27,609 bases of DNA, from positions 1 to 27,609 of IMG/VR virus record IMGVR_UViG_3300024346_000405. The stretch is one strand, 5' to 3'. A model generated the notes under the pieces. That model worked only from the letters and a program-made list of their open reading frames with translations, was not told the origin of the DNA and did not search any database. Position 1 is the stretch's first letter, and each line of letters starts with the position of its first letter. Origin of the DNA: a virus. The position numbers and the translations under genes were made by a program. Positions 8,634 through 21,152 of this stretch are shown piece after piece.

Positions 8634-10322
8634 GTGAGACAATTAAGATTTAAAAAAGGTTCTTGGGTATTAATACCTTTAATTTTTATTTCTATTTTCG
8701 CATCCCCCGCTAAGGCTGAAAACCTAATAATCACACAGCCAACGGATGTTTGGTTTGATTACAGCGAGACAACTCAGTTTATAGCGCAGACTTACATGAT
8801 TACTGGGTATAACTCAGATCCAATGCTGTGGCTATACAACGAAGCAGGCACTTTGCTCTACAGTATTGATGATTCCATTGGTTTGCAGTCGTATATCTCA
8901 ATGGAAGTCCCTGCTGGTCGTTACCGGCTAAGGGCTGGTATTTGCTGTAACGACCCCAATGCTTGGCATACCAATGGAGGGTGGAACTTACAATATGAAT
9001 TAAGTTTTAACGGCGTTGGTTCTACTCAAACTACTTCTACGACAGTGGAATCAACCACAACTACTTCTACCACAATAGAGCCAACTACTACAACTTCTAC
9101 AACGACCACCACAACAACCACAACCACAACGACAGTGGTGCCGACCACAACAACAACATCTTCAACTACAACCTCCACTACAACTTCTACAACAACTATA
9201 GCACCTGAGCCTGAACCGAATGCAACGACTGTTGAGGAAGTTATTCCCCCTCCTGTTGAAACACTTCCAACAGAAAACACCACTGTTTCAATTCCCGAGT
9301 TGGACCAAACTCCAGTTTCTACTCCAGAAATAGATACAACACCTGTTGAAATTCCTGAAGACCCAACGCCAACAATTGAAGTTCCCCAAGAGGTTCAAGA
9401 AACTATAGATGCAACGGTTGATGATATTTTTGATGCACCTATAACCAATGCAAACCTTGCAAATGCTGTTGATGATTTAGTAGCGGATGCCGGAACCCCT
9501 GAAGAACTCACGGCAGTGGTTAATTCTCTTCTTGGTCAAGATTTAACTGATTCGCAGTTTTCTACAGTTATTGATTCAGTGTTTGATGGGCCTATGTCTG
9601 ACGAAAACTTCTCTGCTGCAGTTGAAGCGGTCTTTGATGATACATCTAAATTAAGCGCAGACCAGTTTGAAGCTGCTGTTGATGCAGTCTTTTCTGAGCC
9701 GTTATCTGAAGAGCAATTTTCTGCTGCTCTTGATTCCATTTTTGATGAACCAATCTCGGATGAGAAATTTGCATCGGTTATTGATTCTGTATTAGATACG
9801 CCGTTGTCAGATGAACAATTTGAAGCGGTTGTTGGAATTTTAGAGTCAGATTCTGTTTCTGAAGAACAAGTGTCTAATGCTGTTGACAGTGTTTTGGAAC
9901 TTGGTGTTACAGAAGACCAAGCAACCGACCTTGCTACAAGTGCAAAGGTTTTGGAAAGTATTGACGCAGATCAGGCTACAGAGATTTTCCAAGAGATTCC
10001 TGTTGAGAACCTTACTCCAGCAGAAGAAGCTGCCCTTGTTGCAACACTTACTGAAGCGCCAGAAGAAATTAAAGAATCCTTTGAAGGCGCTATTGACATT
10101 TTCGGAGAAGGTCTTGATGATTATGTCCCAACAGGCTCTGGAATTGATGTAAAAGCAAGAAGAGCACTGATTGCCGTAACAACGGCTTTAACAACTATTA
10201 CAACGGCTCCTATGCCCTCTGGAGGCAGTTCTGCACCATCGGGTGGAGGTTCTGGTGGACCATCGGGAAGCGGTGGTTCTGGTAACACAGATCGGGGTAG
10301 TACCCGATCAAGGAGAAAATAA
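8634..10322 (+). CDS. Secreted or surface protein with signal peptide, Thr-rich linker and acidic repeats
   Basis: This is a 562-residue protein with a textbook signal peptide: basic RQLRFKKGS, hydrophobic WVLIPLIFISIF, and SPAKA before residue 29, a likely signal peptidase I site. Residues 30-125 look like a PPC-type beta-sandwich (DPMLWLYNEAG, VPAGRYRLRAG, two adjacent Cys in GICCND). Residues about 132-190 are a Thr-rich, probably extended linker. From about residue 303, at least five 17-residue acidic repeats of the form PLSDEQFxAAVDSVFDE follow. The C-terminus is Gly/Ser-rich and ends in SRRK. Such mucin-like Thr stretches are common in exported proteins of aquatic Actinobacteria (recollection). 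GTG 8634 is required for the signal peptide and has no Shine-Dalgarno. The gene lies immediately before the lysis cassette, so roles in envelope remodelling, lysis timing or superinfection exclusion are possible but unproven. Confidence 0.8.
   Translation: MRQLRFKKGSWVLIPLIFISIFASPAKAENLIITQPTDVWFDYSETTQFIAQTYMITGYNSDPMLWLYNEAGTLLYSIDDSIGLQSYISMEVPAGRYRLRAGICCNDPNAWHTNGGWNLQYELSFNGVGSTQTTSTTVESTTTTSTTIEPTTTTSTTTTTTTTTTTTVVPTTTTTSSTTTSTTTSTTTIAPEPEPNATTVEEVIPPPVETLPTENTTVSIPELDQTPVSTPEIDTTPVEIPEDPTPTIEVPQEVQETIDATVDDIFDAPITNANLANAVDDLVADAGTPEELTAVVNSLLGQDLTDSQFSTVIDSVFDGPMSDENFSAAVEAVFDDTSKLSADQFEAAVDAVFSEPLSEEQFSAALDSIFDEPISDEKFASVIDSVLDTPLSDEQFEAVVGILESDSVSEEQVSNAVDSVLELGVTEDQATDLATSAKVLESIDADQATEIFQEIPVENLTPAEEAALVATLTEAPEEIKESFEGAIDIFGEGLDDYVPTGSGIDVKARRALIAVTTALTTITTAPMPSGGSSAPSGGGSGGPSGSGGSGNTDRGSTRSRRK
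9028..9200 (+). repeat. Low-complexity Thr-codon repeat (ACA/ACT/ACC) encoding the Thr-rich linker
   Basis: The stretch is dominated by ACN codons with interspersed TCT, giving runs of Thr in the secreted protein. Its complement encodes Val runs, which explains an apparent antisense open frame here. Such tracts change length by replication slippage. Confidence 0.8.
9540..9850 (+). repeat. Degenerate 51-bp repeats encoding 17-residue acidic units
   Basis: At protein level, units such as DLTDSQFSTVIDSVFDG, PLSEEQFSAALDSIFDE and PISDEKFASVIDSVLDT follow one another with a 17-residue period. Some units are extended by two or three residues. DNA identity between copies is moderate, indicating old duplication with selection on the protein pattern. 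Confidence 0.75.
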
Positions 10323-13598: not shown

Positions 13599-13957
13599 TG
13601 GCTGTGACACAAAAAAGATTGGCTGGTCCAACTCAAATTACTACCGTTACATCTGTTGCATATACTGTTCCAATTAACACCACAACTATCGTTAAACAAA
13701 TCCTGTTAACTAATACAACAGCTTCTTCAAAAACTGCAACAATTCGTTTAAAGCCTCTCAATATTGCTGAAGCAAATACTCATGATATATTAAGCAGTGT
13801 AACAATTAATGCAAATGAGACTGTATCATTCAACTGCTCTATGGTTTTAATTAATAATGGAAGTACTGCGAACAATACAAATAGTGATCAAATTACATTT
13901 TTAGCATCGTCTAACTCAGCAATCAATGTTACAATATTTGGGATAGAGGAGTCATAA
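13598..13957 (+). CDS. Small beta-sandwich virion protein
   Basis: The 119-residue protein has strands VAYTVPINTTTIVKQILLTN, ASSKTATIRLKPLN and ANETVSFNCSMVLINNGS. The layout parallels the protein at 8277-8609, and the two are likely paralogues with an Ig-like fold. GGAGG (13586-13590) precedes ATG 13598, and the start overlaps the previous stop. The stop overlaps the next start (TAATG at 13955). It probably decorates or anchors the fibre. Confidence 0.68.
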   Translation: MAVTQKRLAGPTQITTVTSVAYTVPINTTTIVKQILLTNTTASSKTATIRLKPLNIAEANTHDILSSVTINANETVSFNCSMVLINNGSTANNTNSDQITFLASSNSAINVTIFGIEES

Positions 13958-14673
13958 TGACAGGTATTTCTAAATTTCCTGCATCCAATGCTTTCGCTTC
14001 CTTCATAGATGCCGCTGACCCTGTATACGGTACTGGTTCAGATGGGTCTGTAACTATTTCTGTAAATACAACTTTGTCATCTGATAAGTATTATTATAAT
14101 TTGGAAATAAGTGCAAACACAAATCTTATCACTGCCGGTTATAGAGTTTTTGTAAAGAATTTACTTACACTTCGCAATGGTTCTTTAATTGGTTTCACAA
14201 CTGGATCAAACGCAAATGGCTCAATATCTGGTGGAGGAGCTGCTAACACTGCTGTTACAAATAGTCTTGGTGGAAATAGCGCAACACAGGTCGCAGCAGT
14301 CCCAACTGTTTCAAACGGTGGAACTGGCGATAAGACGACACAGAGTGGCTACTGGTATCAACCTACACAATCTTCTAAAGGGTATGTTGTAACAGCAACT
14401 CAAACCACTCCTTTATTTTTAAGAGGAGGCGCTGGTGGTGCCTCTGGTGCTGGTGGTGGAGTTGTTATTCTTAATGCGAGATATATTTCTTGTGATGCAA
14501 ATACTATTAATGCATCAATTAGTGCACCAGGAACGGCTGGTTCTGGTGGTGGAGGAGGCGGAGTTATTGTCATCACTTCTGCACAAGCATCTTTGCCAGC
14601 AAATGTTTCAACAAATGTTGCTGGTGGAACAAGTTGCGTAGCGGGTACGGTTATTTACTCCCAGTTGGTTTGA
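13957..14673 (+). CDS. Glycine-rich adhesin-like protein, shorter paralogue
   Basis: This is a 238-residue protein. Residues about 22-80 contain DPVYGTGSDGSVTISVNTTL and YRVFVKNLLTLRNGSLIGF, a head domain shared with the next gene. Residues about 155-215 are Gly-rich (GGAGGASGAGGGVVIL, GTAGSGGGGGGVIVIT), like the sheet-forming Gly-rich adhesins at the tips of some phage fibres (for example gp38 of T4-like phages, recollection). The C-terminus returns to a short beta segment (GTSCVAGTVIY). AGAGGAG (13945-13951) is the ribosome binding site. It contains no His-rich part, unlike its larger neighbour. Confidence 0.72.
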   Translation: MTGISKFPASNAFASFIDAADPVYGTGSDGSVTISVNTTLSSDKYYYNLEISANTNLITAGYRVFVKNLLTLRNGSLIGFTTGSNANGSISGGGAANTAVTNSLGGNSATQVAAVPTVSNGGTGDKTTQSGYWYQPTQSSKGYVVTATQTTPLFLRGGAGGASGAGGGVVILNARYISCDANTINASISAPGTAGSGGGGGGVIVITSAQASLPANVSTNVAGGTSCVAGTVIYSQLV

Positions 14674-14674
14674 T

Positions 14675-16336
14675 ATGGCTGGTTTAGAAAGATTTAACTC
14701 ACCTGTAAAAGTTCAAAGAATCGGTAATGACTCAGTTTACGGAACAGGTTCTGACGGAACCGTAGTGATTGCATCCAATACATCCCTTACTAGGGATATG
14801 TACTACAGTAGTCTTACGATCAATAGTGGTTCTCATCTAAACACAAACGGTTTTAAAGTTTTTGTAAAAAATACATTAACTGTAAATGGAAGTATTGGAA
14901 TAAATGCTGGGGTTGCGGTTAGTAATGCAACTCTTGTTGGAACATCAAATATCGCAGCAAATACCACAAACTCAATCGGAGGAAGTGCTGCTGGTGTAAC
15001 CTACACAGCATCTCAGGTTTCTTCTGATGTGCGTTCTTATATTGAAAATATTTTGATGGGAGCTTCTGTAAGCGTATCGGGAACGGTTGCTGCTTTTACT
15101 GGTGGGGCAGGGGGAGGTAATGGAGCTGCTGGAACTGTTACTCCCGCAACGGCAGGGAGCGGTGCAACCAATGGGGCTGCAGGATCTGCAGGATCTGGAG
15201 CAACTGCGGGTGGTGCGGGTGGTGCAGGTGATCTTGGTCCTCATAGAAATGTTTTGGCACCCGGAGGTAATGGCACTGCAGGAACTCCCGGAACCAATGG
15301 GGCTGCTGGCTCTGCTGGCTCTGCTGGCACCAATGGAGCCGCTGGTACAACACCCCCTGCTGCTTCGGGAGGAACAGGAGCAAGAGGTGGTGGTGTAGTT
15401 CTTGTATGTGCTAAGTCAATTACAGGAAGTGGAAGCATTGTATCTCTTGGCTCACATGGAGGTCTTGGAGGAAACTCAGCAACAGGTACTGGTGCAACAA
15501 ATGGCGCTAATGGTACTGGCGCAACTGCGGGAGGGGCGGGTTCCGCAGGCTCTGCAGGAACAGCTGCACCGGGTGCCTCTATTGCTCATCATGTCAACAG
15601 CCATGCACATATCATAAGTGGTGATGGTACACATGGTGCTCATGTTCAAGTACCATCTCCCGCTCTACCGAGAGGTCATATTGCTGCAGCTCATGGTCAA
15701 CATGCTCATGGCTCTTATACAAACACTCATCATGGTGCAACCCCTGTTCATCCTGAAAACCATCATGGTGGTTCAAGCCCCACCTACGGTAGTGCTTCAA
15801 CAGGTTATGCACATGTCGCCCCATCTGGTTATTATCACCAAAACGGTATAAACCATACCGTAGGGGGTCATCTTGGTCATGATGGAGCAGTTGCTCATGG
15901 ACATTCCGGAGATGTGGAATTTGGTGTTAATAGCTATCACGAAACTGATCACCACCATGTGGGAGGCTATAAAACCCCTCATCACACAGCTTCGCAAGCC
16001 CGCCCCCGCACTGATCGTGTTGGCCATCATTTTAATGGTGATCACAGAAACGCAGGCGATCAAAGACATGTAGGTCATACTCACAAAGCAGGAGGAGCTG
16101 CGGGATCTGCGGGATCTGCGGGAACTTCTGGTACTTCTGGAAGCAATGGAGCTGCGGGGACCAATGGAACAAATGGCTCAACAACGGCTGGCGCTCATGG
16201 TCAGTCAGGTGGAGGTGGAGGGATATTTATTATAACCGATTCAACCCCGACAGGCGTGACAACAAGCGTTGCTGGTGGTACAATTGGAGGAGTTAGCGCT
16301 AGTAGTGGTAATATAATTACCGTACTCAATGCATAG
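14675..16336 (+). CDS. Large glycine-rich adhesin with His-rich insert
   Basis: The 553-residue protein begins with the same head domain as the previous gene (VYGTGSDGTVVIASNTSL, then FKVFVKNTLTV). Residues about 140-300 are Gly/Ala/Asn/Thr-rich with collagen- or polyglycine-like runs (GSGATNGAAGSAGSG, GTNGAAGSAGSAG). Residues 305-470 hold 34 His, many as HH, HxH or HHH (HVNSHAHIIS, ETDHHHVGG, GHHFNGDH). A second Gly-rich run (about 473-515) precedes a final IFIITDSTPTG segment. Phage fibre tips that bind metal through HxH motifs are known (T4 gp37), so a metal-stabilised rod is a reasonable inference. No Shine-Dalgarno is visible and the start lies 1 nt after the preceding stop. Probable receptor-binding protein. 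Confidence 0.75.
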   Translation: MAGLERFNSPVKVQRIGNDSVYGTGSDGTVVIASNTSLTRDMYYSSLTINSGSHLNTNGFKVFVKNTLTVNGSIGINAGVAVSNATLVGTSNIAANTTNSIGGSAAGVTYTASQVSSDVRSYIENILMGASVSVSGTVAAFTGGAGGGNGAAGTVTPATAGSGATNGAAGSAGSGATAGGAGGAGDLGPHRNVLAPGGNGTAGTPGTNGAAGSAGSAGTNGAAGTTPPAASGGTGARGGGVVLVCAKSITGSGSIVSLGSHGGLGGNSATGTGATNGANGTGATAGGAGSAGSAGTAAPGASIAHHVNSHAHIISGDGTHGAHVQVPSPALPRGHIAAAHGQHAHGSYTNTHHGATPVHPENHHGGSSPTYGSASTGYAHVAPSGYYHQNGINHTVGGHLGHDGAVAHGHSGDVEFGVNSYHETDHHHVGGYKTPHHTASQARPRTDRVGHHFNGDHRNAGDQRHVGHTHKAGGAAGSAGSAGTSGTSGSNGAAGTNGTNGSTTAGAHGQSGGGGGIFIITDSTPTGVTTSVAGGTIGGVSASSGNIITVLNA

Positions 16337-16344
16337 GAGGGAAA

Positions 16345-16578
16345 ATGATTCAATTTTCATTAACAGCAGAACAGAAAAAAGAGATGCTTGAAAACAACCT
16401 GCGAAGTATTTCAATGGAAATCTACAGTCTGATTCTGTTCTTAGGTCATGATCCAGATACATACGATCAAACTGGAATACTTGCTTTTGCAGAACGAGAA
16501 GCTCCAAGCAATGAGGCAAGATTGTTCTCGTTATACAACCGCTATAATTCACTTCAAGAGAAAATAGCCAGCCTGTAG
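16345..16578 (+). CDS. Small alpha-helical protein following the adhesins
   Basis: The 77-residue protein starts MIQFSLTAEQKKEMLENNLR and contains a helix with MEIYSLILFLGHDPDTY, then REAPSNEARLFSLYNRYNSLQEKIA. It is helical and charged, with no membrane segment. I recall similar short proteins next to fibre genes in aquatic phages, but I have no function for them. A chaperone or coiled-coil adaptor for the adhesin is one possibility. AGGAGG (16335-16340) is the ribosome binding site before ATG 16345. The gene marks the boundary to the accessory cassette that follows. Confidence 0.7.
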   Translation: MIQFSLTAEQKKEMLENNLRSISMEIYSLILFLGHDPDTYDQTGILAFAEREAPSNEARLFSLYNRYNSLQEKIASL

Positions 16579-16579
16579 T

Positions 16580-16981
16580 ATGAGAAGGGTGATTTTTTGT
16601 CCCAACGAATCCCTCATTCCAGAAGCGGAAATCCTTTCTAAGAAGAATAATTTGCCAATAAATATTGGTTTATTTGACGAAATAGAAAATTTATCATTTG
16701 ATCATCGGAAAGTTCAAATCCTTGAAGTACCTGAAAAAAACAACCTTTCTTATTTCCAGACCTGTGCTAATCATTTTCATACTAATATTTGGTACGAAAA
16801 CGATTTTATTGCATTAAAAAATCAAACCGTTTTAAATATAGATGGTGTTGAATTTCAGCCAGTGTTGGCTGAGAAACACAAAGTCCATTTTCTGATTTTA
16901 GAAAGTATAACCGGAAATAAAAAATGCAGTATTATTTCCAATAATAAAATAGTAGAAAGTTTTAATTACGATGTATGTTGA
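16580..16981 (+). CDS. Protein of unknown function, first gene of the oxygenase/halogenase cassette
   Basis: The 133-residue protein has an alpha/beta character: MRRVIFCPNESLIPEAE, NLPINIGLFDEIENLSF, an EVPEKNNLSYFQTC stretch and a beta-rich C-terminus with VHFLILESITGNKKCSIIS. It is Asn- and Lys-rich, like its downstream neighbours and unlike the Gly/Ala-rich adhesins before it. ATG 16580 lies 1 nt after the previous stop with no clear Shine-Dalgarno, so it may depend on coupling. The stop overlaps the oxygenase start by 11 nt, tying it to that gene. I cannot assign a function. Confidence 0.65.
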   Translation: MRRVIFCPNESLIPEAEILSKKNNLPINIGLFDEIENLSFDHRKVQILEVPEKNNLSYFQTCANHFHTNIWYENDFIALKNQTVLNIDGVEFQPVLAEKHKVHFLILESITGNKKCSIISNNKIVESFNYDVC

Positions 16982-17564
16982 AAAAATAGAAGAAATGCCT
17001 TGCGTATGGGTGTACAAAGACTATTTTGATGTAAAAGATTTTATTTCAAAATTTGAAGAAGAGGCTGAGAAGTCTTGGTCTTATATTCCGTGGACAAAAT
17101 CCGTTACTGGAGATGCAGAGAACAGGCGGGAATCAGAGTACAGGAGTTCTCTTGAAGCCCCAGTGGGGGTTCTGCTAGAAAAAGATTTGGTTGCTGATGT
17201 AGCGGAGTTGGGGGAATCCTTTAAGGAAATTTTTTCTTCAATTGACAAGTGCATTTGGGATTACCGAAATGCTTATGATTTATTTTTAAAAGAAGTGGAA
17301 GTAATAAATCTTTTAAAATATGAAGGAAGCGCTCAGTATCATAGTCATCACGATCACAGTGCAAGCAATGGCAGAATTCTGAGCCTAATTGCTTGTTTTG
17401 GAGATGACTTTGAAGGAGGGGAACTGGAGTTTCCCTTTTTTAATAAAACAATAAAATTGCAAAAAAACTCTTTAATCCTATTCCCTTCCAATTTTCCCTA
17501 CACCCATATAGCTCATCCGGTAACAAGTGGGGTTAAGTACAGTATGGTAACATGGTTTATATGA
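16971..17564 (+). CDS. Fe(II)/2-oxoglutarate-dependent oxygenase (prolyl 4-hydroxylase-like)
   Basis: The 197-residue protein has the facial-triad signature of 2-oxoglutarate oxygenases: H126-H-D128 (HxD), distal H179 in YTHIAHPV and K189 in GVKYSMVTW as the 2-oxoglutarate carboxylate ligand. FEGGELEFPF (about 147-156) and LILFPSNFPYTH are classic neighbours of these residues in prolyl hydroxylase-type enzymes. The N-terminal part is less conserved. Such enzymes hydroxylate proteins or small molecules. A cyanophage protein of this class acts on proline-containing peptides (general family knowledge), but this substrate is unknown. It sits between two unassigned genes and upstream of a halogenase. 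The start overlaps the preceding stop by 11 nt, with no good Shine-Dalgarno. Confidence 0.85.
   Translation: MYVEKIEEMPCVWVYKDYFDVKDFISKFEEEAEKSWSYIPWTKSVTGDAENRRESEYRSSLEAPVGVLLEKDLVADVAELGESFKEIFSSIDKCIWDYRNAYDLFLKEVEVINLLKYEGSAQYHSHHDHSASNGRILSLIACFGDDFEGGELEFPFFNKTIKLQKNSLILFPSNFPYTHIAHPVTSGVKYSMVTWFI
17541..17553 (+). promoter_or_regulatory. Putative extended -10 promoter inside the oxygenase gene
   Basis: AGTATGGTAACAT contains TG (17545-17546), one base, then TAACAT (17548-17553). ATG 17561 begins 7 nt later. This reproduces the arrangement at 7192-7212 (AGTATGGTAAGAT, 7 nt, ATG) almost base for base, despite lying in coding sequence. A leaderless transcript from here would start at the next gene. 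Confidence 0.5.
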
Positions 17565-18631
17565 AAAATATAAGTGAAATCAACCCTCTTGATTACGAAA
17601 GTTACTACTTTATAGGCGATATGGATAATATTGAGTTAAAGTTTAATACCACAGAGGGTATGATTGTGCATGATGATTATGATGTGATCAATACAGAATC
17701 TGGTAAAATCATCGCCTTCCCAGTCCGAAGAGTCGGTGTCCATAATTACATATGTAATGATGTAAATGTTAGCTTAACTTATTTTGATCAAATGTTTGAT
17801 ATTCTAGATAAAAAAGAATTTGAAGGTTTTAAGTTCTTCATACTTGCAAACTCTATTGAACTCCCAAGTTTTGAGGAATTTGATAAAATAGAGGGGATGA
17901 GTAGAACAGTGGAAGGTACGCATGCTATTCGATGTGATTATGGAAAATATGGCTCATTCCCTTTCTCCATTCCCGAAAAGGTTTATGTAATATCAAAAAC
18001 ATTTAATCCACTCAATCTTGCGGGAGTTGCTCATGTGGCATATCTAGAAACTCTAGAAAAAGAGAATCAAAATCCAAACCACTCTTCTGTACTCATGTCC
18101 GCAAGATCCTACTCGGCAATGCTAAAAGTTATTTATGAGTGGGCTATGGTGCCGGATGCTGACATCCACGAATATGCTGAAATTTCTCAAAAGGCAAAGG
18201 AGCTATGGTCCAGTTTAAATGTACCTGCAGATTTACAGGATTGGCTTTCAACTCAATACCCTGCAGCTAGGTTGTCTAAATATCTAAATGGTCAGCCATA
18301 TAAGGGTATAGAACATGAGATGCCAGAAGAGATGCCAGAAGTTCTTTCTAATTTTATCAAATCAAATTGTCAGTACAGAACACTAACATCTTTAAAGAAT
18401 TCTCATCCAAGTAATGTTGTAATTCCTCAAGATATTCTTGATTCCGAAAAGAGTCAAATTGATTTTTTCATTTACGACTTGCTTACAAGAAACAATATTG
18501 ATTATGAAGATAAAAAGTATATTGATATTGTAAAATTATTTTTTGATAAAAACTACACCTTAGATTTTGCACCAAATAGTAATGTTGGGCAAATGATAGC
18601 AAAAACTGCATGTCTTCAAAGGACACTATAA
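17561..18631 (+). CDS. Protein of unknown function between the oxygenase and halogenase
   Basis: This 356-residue protein is one I do not recognise. The N-terminal half is mixed alpha/beta (YYFIGDMDNIELKF, IIAFPVRRVGVHNYI, KFFILANSIELPSFEEF). The C-terminal half is helical with YSAMLKVIYEWAM and LSTQYPAARLSKYL. It is acidic, has no signal or membrane segment, and has a base composition like the oxygenase and halogenase. ATG 17561 forms an ATGA overlap with the oxygenase stop and has a promoter-like element 7 nt upstream. ATG 17552 is in frame but has no advantage. Its fixed place between the two enzymes suggests a partner or substrate-recognition role. That is inference only. Confidence 0.65.
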   Translation: MKNISEINPLDYESYYFIGDMDNIELKFNTTEGMIVHDDYDVINTESGKIIAFPVRRVGVHNYICNDVNVSLTYFDQMFDILDKKEFEGFKFFILANSIELPSFEEFDKIEGMSRTVEGTHAIRCDYGKYGSFPFSIPEKVYVISKTFNPLNLAGVAHVAYLETLEKENQNPNHSSVLMSARSYSAMLKVIYEWAMVPDADIHEYAEISQKAKELWSSLNVPADLQDWLSTQYPAARLSKYLNGQPYKGIEHEMPEEMPEVLSNFIKSNCQYRTLTSLKNSHPSNVVIPQDILDSEKSQIDFFIYDLLTRNNIDYEDKKYIDIVKLFFDKNYTLDFAPNSNVGQMIAKTACLQRTL

Positions 18632-18635
18632 TAGT

Positions 18636-20096
18636 ATGAAAACAACAATTGTCGGAAGTGGTACGGCAGGATTAATTACTGCTTTGATTTTAAGAGAAGC
18701 GTTCCCCTTTAGGGAAATTACAATCATATCTTCTTCCAAAATTGGGATAATTGGAGTCGGGGAAGGGTCAACAGAGCACTGGAAACTCTTTATGAGCCTT
18801 TGCAACATACCACTTGGTGAGATGATTGTTGAATCCAGAGCTACCCATAAGTATGGAATTCGTTTTGAAAATTGGACTAATCATACCCCTGATTATATTC
18901 ATAGCATATCAAGTGCAGATACTCATGAACCCATTGGGTATTATGCTGCCTACAATGGCTTTATCATGAATAATAGAACATTAACAGAGAACATGGCACC
19001 AAGATCTCTTATTGAAAATAAGATAAATGCCAATAACCCTCATCAATCTGTTAATCAATTTCATTTTGACACTTTTTCTTTAAACAAATATCTATCCAAT
19101 ATCTGCATTAGTAGATCTATAAAAATTATAGATGCTGAGGTTATCAAGGTTAATTTAAATTCAGAGAACGGCTATATTGATTCCGTAATGCTGGACAGTC
19201 TTGAAAACTTTGAATCCGATTTCTGGATTGATGCTACAGGAATGAAGAGAACTCTGATGTCAGAGATTGGCAATACAGAGTGGAATTCCTTTAAAGACTA
19301 TTTGCAAATGGATTCTGCAATAGCTTTCCCAACAGAAAGCGACCCTTCTGGTGAAATTAGACCGTATACAAGGGCGAGAGCGATGTCTAATGGTTGGGTT
19401 TGGGAAATTCCAACACAAGACCGGCGGGGTAACGGTTATGTATATGCTTCCCAGCATTGCACTGATGATCAAGCGGTCAAGGAAGTGTCCGACCTGCTAG
19501 GTCGTGAAGTTGAACCAGCACGAAGTTTTAAATTTGATCCGGGTCATCTAAAGAAATTCTGGGTAAATAACTGCGTAGCAGTTGGGTTGGCAGCAGCTTT
19601 TGTTGAACCGATTGAGGCAACATCTATTGGGTCAACAATCCAGCAAGCTAGATACTTAATGCATTCGCTAAGTACTTATGACTTGAATTCTAAAAAAATT
19701 CAAGAAGACTATAATCTTAAGATGAATACTATGATGGAAAACATATTGGCAATGATTTCTCTTCACTATGTTTCTGATAGAGAAGATACACCTATGTGGA
19801 AGCAGCAAAAACAAATGAAGAAGCCAGATTACCTAAATAATCTTCTGGAACTTTGGCAAGAAAGACCTCCATTCCGTGACGATATCCCAACAAACAGTTA
19901 TGAGATGTTCCATGTTCCTCACTTTTATCATGTTGCACAGGGTCAAAAGATGCTCTCTGCGGAGAAAGCGGAAAAAATGATTAGCGCTTATGGCAAGAAT
20001 CAATTTGTAAATAAATTAATTTCAGATATCAAACTGGACCAAACAGCACATGCAAAGGTGGATCATGCGGAAGCACTCAGACAAATACAACTATAA
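18636..20096 (+). CDS. Flavin-dependent halogenase (tryptophan halogenase family)
   Basis: This enzyme family uses FADH2, oxygen and halide to halogenate aromatic substrates. The 486-residue protein shows the family signatures: GSGTAG (7-12) for FAD binding, GVGEGSTEH (40-48), the catalytic-lysine candidate K72 in HKYGIRFENW, the diagnostic WxWxIP as W253-V-W255-E-I-P258, and FVEPIEATSI (321-330) with the conserved Glu. It is somewhat shorter than PrnA or RebH. Related halogenases are known in cyanophages, and one (VirX1) was reported to prefer iodide and accept varied substrates, so the substrate here need not be tryptophan. No flavin reductase gene is in the window. AAAGGA (18618-18623) is the only weak ribosome binding site, 12 nt upstream. 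The C-terminus overlaps the next gene. Confidence 0.9.
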   Translation: MKTTIVGSGTAGLITALILREAFPFREITIISSSKIGIIGVGEGSTEHWKLFMSLCNIPLGEMIVESRATHKYGIRFENWTNHTPDYIHSISSADTHEPIGYYAAYNGFIMNNRTLTENMAPRSLIENKINANNPHQSVNQFHFDTFSLNKYLSNICISRSIKIIDAEVIKVNLNSENGYIDSVMLDSLENFESDFWIDATGMKRTLMSEIGNTEWNSFKDYLQMDSAIAFPTESDPSGEIRPYTRARAMSNGWVWEIPTQDRRGNGYVYASQHCTDDQAVKEVSDLLGREVEPARSFKFDPGHLKKFWVNNCVAVGLAAAFVEPIEATSIGSTIQQARYLMHSLSTYDLNSKKIQEDYNLKMNTMMENILAMISLHYVSDREDTPMWKQQKQMKKPDYLNNLLELWQERPPFRDDIPTNSYEMFHVPHFYHVAQGQKMLSAEKAEKMISAYGKNQFVNKLISDIKLDQTAHAKVDHAEALRQIQL

Positions 20097-20883
20097 GATT
20101 GCACATTTCCGACACGACATACCAAAACCTAAAAGGGGAGAAATTGTCATCGTCCCCTCAGACAATCGTTTGATAGAAATACCCCCTTATGTCGCAGGAA
20201 GCCAGTTACCTTCTTGGTGGAAACTTCTTCCAAAAGAAAAGGGTTCGCTTAGGTTTTGTGAGGGTACATATGATTTCAATAATCTTGGGATCATCATTCC
20301 GGCATGGTCGGATATAAAAGTCAGACCAGATATCACAGGGACTAATTTTGAAGCAAGAATCGTTCCGATGAGCGATTATGCAGACTCAACCAGTCCATTT
20401 ACTATTGAGGACTTTACTGCTCAATCAGCATCGGGTTGCCCAATGGAAGATATAAGAAAAATTAAAACGGGAAGATATCTTAAATTAGTTTCCCCTTGGA
20501 GATATAGAACGCCAAAAGGTGTTTCTTTAATGGCAATGCCTCTTTTGCATGAGCCAAATGAGAATTATGAAGTAGTTCCGGGATTGGTCCATACTGATTT
20601 CTATAATCAAATTCATGTTGTTTTAAATATTAAAACAGATAAAGAATTCTCTATACCTGCGGGAACCCCATTGCAACAGTTAATTCCAATTAATCGCAAT
20701 GATAATATTAAAAAAATTACTTTTGGAAATGAGTCAATGTTTAAGTTTGTAAGAAATTCAGGATTGGGTGATTCCTATGTCCCCGCTGAAAACTCAAGAG
20801 TTTTTTATCGTAAAAAACAGAGAGAGCTAGATTCGGAAGCTAAAGAAGAGGATGGTAAAAAATGGTATTCTTTAAGAAAATAA
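20065..20883 (+). CDS. Conserved phage protein of unknown function next to the halogenase
   Basis: The 272-residue protein has a layout I recall from cyanophage and marine phage contigs, often near oxygenases: QLPSWWKLLPKEKGSLRFCEG near residue 48-68, GIIIPAWSDIKVRPD, SPWRYRTPKGVSLMAMPLL, PGLVHTDFYNQIH and IPAGTPLQQLIPI. The last elements resemble the barrel of cupin or dUTPase-like proteins, where 'G-D-x-I/L-x-Q' strands line a pocket. No catalytic residues can be named. ATG 20065 is chosen over ATG 20050 because AAAGGTGG (20054-20061) lies just before it. It overlaps the halogenase end by 32 nt and the next gene by 22 nt, so it is transcribed and probably translated with the halogenase. A basic, disordered C-terminal tail ends in SLRK. 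Confidence 0.75.
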   Translation: MRKHSDKYNYKIAHFRHDIPKPKRGEIVIVPSDNRLIEIPPYVAGSQLPSWWKLLPKEKGSLRFCEGTYDFNNLGIIIPAWSDIKVRPDITGTNFEARIVPMSDYADSTSPFTIEDFTAQSASGCPMEDIRKIKTGRYLKLVSPWRYRTPKGVSLMAMPLLHEPNENYEVVPGLVHTDFYNQIHVVLNIKTDKEFSIPAGTPLQQLIPINRNDNIKKITFGNESMFKFVRNSGLGDSYVPAENSRVFYRKKQRELDSEAKEEDGKKWYSLRK

Positions 20884-21152
20884 TTGATGCAATTAAGACG
20901 ATGAGTAGTCGTTCTTACTGGACAAAGGTTAACTCAGTAGAGGCTTGGGGATTTGCAACAAAGATTGCAATTATCTTTCCGGGTCTTCTTCTTGATAAAC
21001 AATGGTGGTGGTTATATATCTTTGCCATCATTTCAAGCATAAGTCTTATCTGGACATCAACCCGCAAGACTTTGCCAACAATTATCCTATTCAATGTTGC
21101 TTGGGTGATTCTAGCCAGTTTGTCTATCCTGAAGCATTTTTGGTGGTTTTGA
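20862..21152 (+). CDS. Small membrane protein closing the accessory cassette
   Basis: The 96-residue protein has two or three hydrophobic segments: FATKIAIIFPGLLL (about 31-44), WWWLYIFAIISSISLIW (about 48-65) and TIILFNVAWVILASLSIL (about 73-90). It is rich in Trp and has a basic N-terminus, so it is probably an inner-membrane protein. It overlaps the preceding gene by 22 nt, with GAGG at 20848-20851 as ribosome binding site. It is not obviously a holin, since three such candidates already exist next to the endolysin. It could anchor the cassette's products at the membrane or act on superinfection. Function unknown. Confidence 0.7.
   Translation: MVFFKKIIDAIKTMSSRSYWTKVNSVEAWGFATKIAIIFPGLLLDKQWWWLYIFAIISSISLIWTSTRKTLPTIILFNVAWVILASLSILKHFWWF

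Follow-up and report, generated by a model that had tools for sequence, protein, structure and literature searches.

We analyzed a 27.6-kb virus fragment (IMG/VR record IMGVR_UViG_3300024346_000405; the whole stretch of 27,609 nucleotides is called the window) in which a glycine-rich (Gly-rich) putative receptor-binding fiber protein, adhesin-2, is followed by genes for a 2-oxoglutarate (2OG)-Fe(II) oxygenase, a flavin-dependent halogenase and two accessory proteins, g1 and g5. These five genes very probably work as one functional unit, and sequence comparisons lead us to favor the reading that the module is a maturation system for the receptor-binding tip, which it would oxidize and/or halogenate. 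The genes are linked and co-inherited across viral contigs, the catalytic motifs of both enzymes are intact, and the histidine (His) content of the adhesin matches the presence of the halogenase. A sequence-only reading had singled out positions 16580-21152 as a possible modification pathway; its six open reading frames are present as described, and the overlaps of 11, 4, 32 and 22 nucleotides (nt) that it gave are exact with starts at 17561 for g3 and 20065 for g5, the gap between g3 and the halogenase being 4 nt. The main candidate substrate lies just upstream of that interval: it is the His-rich adhesin-2, which had been treated as mere context. The adhesins and the members of the unit are as follows.

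13957..14673, plus strand: adhesin-1, a Gly-rich, His-poor companion adhesin that follows the phage backbone, as seen from alignment, His counts and the correlation of pairwise identities (rho)
14675..16336, plus strand: adhesin-2, Gly-rich putative receptor-binding fiber protein and candidate substrate, from rho and the constant adjacency of the module
15587..16084, plus strand: insert of adhesin-2 (amino acids 305-470), His-rich (20% His) and free of tryptophan (Trp), from its composition against halogenase-free relatives
16580..16981, plus strand: g1 (133 amino acids), conserved accessory protein of the unit, from 30/38 clusters and rho
16971..17564, plus strand: 2OG-Fe(II) oxygenase (197 amino acids), prolyl-4-hydroxylase-like, from PF13640, the HxD/H/K residues and 38/38 clusters
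18636..20096, plus strand: flavin-dependent halogenase of the Trp_halogenase family (486 amino acids), from profile, motifs and 38/38 clusters
20065..20883 (alternative start 20050), plus strand: g5, accessory protein with a dUTPase-like fold, PHROG 7084, from its fold and 38/38 clusters

Scans with the halogenase, g3 and g5 retrieved viral contigs in which g1, the oxygenase, g3, the halogenase and g5 follow a Gly-rich adhesin pair in this order, together with further contigs of altered gene content, and this ordered conservation of the block is far beyond chance. To avoid circularity, linkage was tested with adhesin-1 alone as the query, adhesin-2 being clustered at 90% identity, which left 38 clusters whose downstream sequence ran to 3 kb or more among the best 80 matches per scan, of 314-398 adhesin relatives. 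The halogenase, the oxygenase and g5 were all found nearby in 38 of the 38 clusters, g1 in 30, g6 in 24 and g3 in 20. In some contigs the module is encoded on the other strand or precedes the adhesins; adjacency to the adhesin is kept despite the changed order, strand and place, and the tie is thus independent of any single operon layout. The gene set taken for a pathway by the sequence-only reading is therefore conserved in relatives, which also keep the halogenase K72 and WxWxIP, whose loss would have spoken against that reading. Searches of named phages by tblastn with g3 and adhesin-1 gave no matches. Three contigs (L072, L248 and L249) carry a tandem pair of complete modules with different adhesins.

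The limits of the unit were drawn from the remaining genes of the interval and from a block that has been exchanged between phages:

16345..16578, plus strand: g0 (77 amino acids), between adhesin-2 and g1, frequent in relatives
17561..18631 (alternative start 17552), plus strand: g3, inside the block and decoupled from it, with a model of mean predicted local distance difference test (pLDDT) 88
20862..21152, plus strand: g6, a 96-amino-acid membrane protein by hydropathy, outside the unit, where the swapped block has its right edge
14850..20860, no strand: block replaced between otherwise near-identical phages, from the comparisons of the window with L021 and of L021 with L041, its edges known to ~300 nt

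Compared with contig L021, the window shows mostly 85-100% DNA identity on both flanks and 42-78% between ~14,850 and 20,860. The comparison of L021 with L041 is the mirror image, with 84-100% identity within the block (mostly at least 95) and mostly 48-87% outside. The replaced block spans adhesin-2 to g5, and L041 carries the same block in a different backbone. Moreover, among 11 related contigs the pairwise identities of adhesin-2, g1, the oxygenase and the halogenase correlate with one another (rho 0.61-0.79; Mantel p ≤ 0.0015 for the tested pairs). Adhesin-2 reaches 0.61 with the halogenase and 0.67 with the oxygenase, g1 reaches 0.79 with the halogenase and 0.78 with adhesin-2, and g5 gives 0.29-0.52 with these four. 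The halogenase shows a rho of about zero with adhesin-1 (0.07), g6 (−0.07), the head-tail adaptor and the tail tube. From the block swap and this pattern, the unit appears to comprise adhesin-2, g1, the oxygenase, the halogenase and g5. Among the partners proposed by the sequence-only reading, g1 and g5 belong to this unit. Its membrane protein, g6, was rejected, as it follows the phage backbone and is 86-98% identical across contigs whose modules diverge. The case for g3 as a core partner was weakened: it is uncoupled from the other genes of the block in which it lies, although the gene is so divergent that the signal may be blurred, and it accompanies only 20 of the 38 clusters.

We infer that adhesin-2 is a tail-fiber protein from the place of its gene and from its relatives, which are annotated as tail fiber or minor tail protein; it matched no Pfam family, Gly_rich_2 (PF21722) included. 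A wider scan with the adhesin N-terminal domains brought in halogenase-free relatives. Over 121 clusters, the richest adhesin contained 2.7-16.0% His where a halogenase was near (85 clusters) and 0-2.4% where it was not (36 clusters), an area under the curve (AUC) of 1.000. Clusters fetched by adhesin queries only gave the same picture, with 2.84-16.0% His in 72 halogenase-linked clusters and 0-2.38% in 36 without. Halogenase-linked adhesins are also lower in Trp and phenylalanine, and higher in proline (AUC 0.88) and slightly in tyrosine. Trp, which the family name hints at, is an unlikely substrate, as the adhesin-2 of the window is Trp-free and the linked adhesins are lower in it. A regular HxH metal needle of the T4 gp37 type was rejected as well, with five HxH observed against 6.5 expected in the His-rich segment of the window; no general excess of this spacing was found across clusters.

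Both enzymes have intact catalytic motifs. The halogenase matches Pfam Trp_halogenase (PF04820) with E 3e-102 (343 bits, curated cut-off 21) and carries GSGTAG at 7, K72, WVWEIP at 254 and FVEPIEATSI at 322, just where they had been read. G7, G9, G12, K72, W254, W256, I258, P259 and E327 are invariant in a 14-row alignment, the catalytic E327 having been located by alignment to solved enzymes. The oxygenase matches 2OG-FeII_Oxy_3 (PF13640) above the curated cut-off (E 2e-12), and the H126, D128, H179 and K189 reported earlier (the HxD...H facial triad and the 2OG lysine) are invariant in an 8-row alignment; its nearest solved structures are prolyl 4-hydroxylases. Prolyl 4-hydroxylases, the viral enzyme of PBCV-1 among them, are of the same superfamily and share the HxD...H and lysine, but have no halogenase or g5 partner. 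There is a precedent for viral proteins being hydroxylated by a virus-encoded prolyl hydroxylase (PMC9301287). The free-tryptophan halogenases PrnA, RebH, PyrH and Thal share with the halogenase of the window the fold family, GxGxxG, the lysine, WxWxIP and the glutamate; they are small-molecule enzymes of biosynthetic clusters, whereas the halogenase described here is tied to a nearly Trp-free fiber gene. Besides, seven contigs (L153, L155, L158, L160, L170, L174 and L176) carry three to five Trp_halogenase genes each, arrayed among many 2OG-like genes, with no adhesin of the adhesin-2 family in view; in L176 a g5 relative is present too.

The tip loci of cyanophages come closest to replicating the association independently. 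CPUG_00131 of Syn10 is the halogenase VirX1 (1271 bits to PDB 6qgm), and its gene overlaps both neighbors, another halogenase on the upstream side and a g5 relative (E 2e-15) on the downstream side. Two Gly_rich_2 (PF21722) tip proteins, CPUG_00134 and CPUG_00135, with 11 His each stand ahead of VirX1, and an array of 2OG/JmjC oxygenases comes after it. S-CREM1 and S-RIM44 have the same gene order, and a VirX1-type halogenase lies nearby in each of the 11 distinct cyanophages that two tip queries retrieved. The order of a Gly-rich, His-bearing tip, a halogenase and a g5 relative, plus a 2OG oxygenase, is thus common to the window and Syn10, with the 2OG gene in a different position. The independence of the replicate is limited, as the two groups have homologous g5 proteins and halogenases. 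VirX1 belongs to the same Pfam family as the halogenase of the window but is distant (phmmer E 2e-45) and has an ESTG-type halide loop, and Syn10, a T4-like cyanobacterial myovirus, has two halogenases, about nine oxygenases and a tip family different from adhesin-2. VirX1 halogenates in vitro (PMC8407142); its natural substrate is absent from that review. From the list of targets of the sequence-only reading, a tie to the fiber is strongly backed by the 38 clusters, the co-diversification, the block swap and the VirX1 parallel, and a capsid target found no support.

How the module might act can be outlined as follows. Adhesin-2 would display a His-rich, hypervariable domain within a Gly-rich frame. 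After translation, g1 and g5, as adaptors or chaperones, may keep hold of adhesin-2 or deliver the enzymes to the fiber. There, side chains of the His-rich insert, most likely His and possibly tyrosine or proline, would be hydroxylated by the 2OG oxygenase and/or halogenated by the halogenase, the latter using reduced flavin from the host or from a gene outside the fragment; the matured tip would then be assembled. We regard adhesin-2 as a likely substrate, and suggest His only tentatively as the residue modified. The model of g5 (pLDDT 91.7) has a dUTPase-like fold (VIA Z 10.4, root-mean-square deviation 4.0 over 124 residues; Foldseek E 1e-4), with a score below the Pfam dUTPase cut-off (17.3 bits vs 22), and the shared fold shows no function. 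Both dUTPases and tail fibers are typically trimers. Since VirX1 is a trimer too (PMC8407142), a symmetric adaptor role for g5 is an attractive possibility. For g3, neither Foldseek nor VIA-align gave a good PDB match, which does not amount to a new fold, and its matches in BFVD were to uncharacterised phage proteins only. No sequence match was found between the module proteins and phage tail-fiber assembly chaperones. The genes of T4 gp38/Tfa-type chaperones stand directly behind the fiber gene and are co-inherited with it; the module resembles them in both respects, unlike them in that they are not redox enzymes.

Several observations weigh against the maturation of a His-rich tip. On the tree of adhesin N-terminal domains, halogenase and His states each show only one to three changes; within the adhesin family the clusters are therefore not independent replicates of the association, and the test of independent origins there was uninformative. 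One contig (L348:3409-8708, from a Gammaproteobacteria-binned metagenome-assembled genome) has the full module including the halogenase and an adhesin-2 with only 1.8% His, and is the sole exception to the His rule. The halogenases of S-PM2, S-MbCM6, S-SSM7, S-B64, P-SSM2 and HTVC008M have non-fiber neighbors, and we reject on their account the universal claim that all phage halogenases are fiber enzymes. In S-SRM01 (L185:7995-10576) the halogenase stands directly before a gene annotated as gp37-gp38 adhesin tip complex with zero His and nine Trp, so the modified residue may differ between systems. Finally, the halide loop reads EATS in the window and its relatives, compared with the usual ESTG. 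Because of this departure, oxidation without halogenation has to be weighed, that is, a modification of adhesin-2 in which the flavin enzyme serves in vivo as an oxidase, hydroxylase or scaffold. Two halogenase-free variants that retain 2OG and g5 genes would fit it (L325:8947-17130 and L329:1317-10096, with reversed adhesin order, g1, two 2OG genes, two g5 relatives and further unassigned proteins; their richest adhesin has 2.4% His). Nevertheless, the catalytic lysine and glutamate and WxWxIP are invariant, and among solved structures the loop is ESTS in 6frl and ESTG in the others. The 6frl structure is of a BrvH-type halogenase with reported activity. As the VirX1 of the matching cyanophage locus halogenates in vitro (PMC8407142), we consider oxidation alone quite unlikely.

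Co-inheritance by itself would be equally expected if the enzymes acted on a component of the host envelope or on a metabolite, and shared with the adhesin only the host that bears its receptor; the module would then serve host range without chemistry on the fiber, and the halogenases of S-SSM7 and S-MbCM6 do sit in sugar or metabolic gene regions. Such a target predicts neither the His-rich insert of halogenase-linked adhesins nor the recurrence of the gene order in cyanophages next to another family of tips, and we find it unlikely. Fiber regions are also known variable islands, for example in Nanopelagicales phages (PMC10202952), and other phage halogenases are located elsewhere, so that the locus could be a recombination hot spot gathering cargo unrelated in function to the adhesin. 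This is very improbable given that the same three genes recur in 38 of 38 clusters, and proximity alone is insufficient, because coupling is lost for g3, which lies within the block, and for g6 at its border, yet persists between members farther apart, even if the low rho of g3 may be partly saturation. Maturation of the tip by its own enzymes accounts best, in our judgment, for the composition and the linkage together.

The fragment also encodes portal, capsid and minor-tail genes, and since its capsid protein is ~50% identical to those of Streptomyces phages, the host is probably an actinobacterium. An Actinomycetota-binned contig carries the same module behind a fragment with 20% His. Elsewhere in the window, a gene for a B12-dependent class II ribonucleotide reductase (18-2138) precedes the portal gene at the fragment's left end. 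Positions 8634-10322 encode a protein of 562 amino acids whose N-terminus is signal-like and which contains a long poly-Thr tract and short EPLSEEQF-like repeats; its relatives occur close to the module in further contigs.

Viral halogenases and 2OG oxygenases have been read as host-metabolism genes conferring antibiotic protection (PMC2984593, PMC9964418), and the same gene classes as DNA repair (PMC9146016) or nitrogen control (PMC3037559) functions. Our data point to the virion and not to metabolism, as the enzymes are firmly linked to a receptor-binding tip rich in His. In full-text searches, none of the titles and abstracts listed joined a halogenase with a tail fiber or adhesin. Natural 5-bromohistidine occurs in a sponge skeleton, a structural material (PMC8659048), and halogenated His and tyrosine in the structural materials of marine animals are a chemical precedent only, of unrelated origin. 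Phage-encoded modification of virion proteins is in general already known. To our knowledge, this would, if true, be the first halogenated phage structural protein, and halogenation of a receptor-binding tip would be new. It is possible, and we put it forward with reserve, that at least two unrelated phage lineages halogenate and hydroxylate the histidines of their own tips with a dedicated set of enzymes inherited along with the tip, that VirX1-type viral halogenases natively serve this purpose, and that it diversifies host recognition chemically, in addition to sequence. If so, VirX1 would gain a candidate native substrate, and phage host range an extra chemical layer. Dozens of aquatic phages carry the module beside a His-rich attachment protein, which suggests that the tip with which they grab bacteria is chemically modified.

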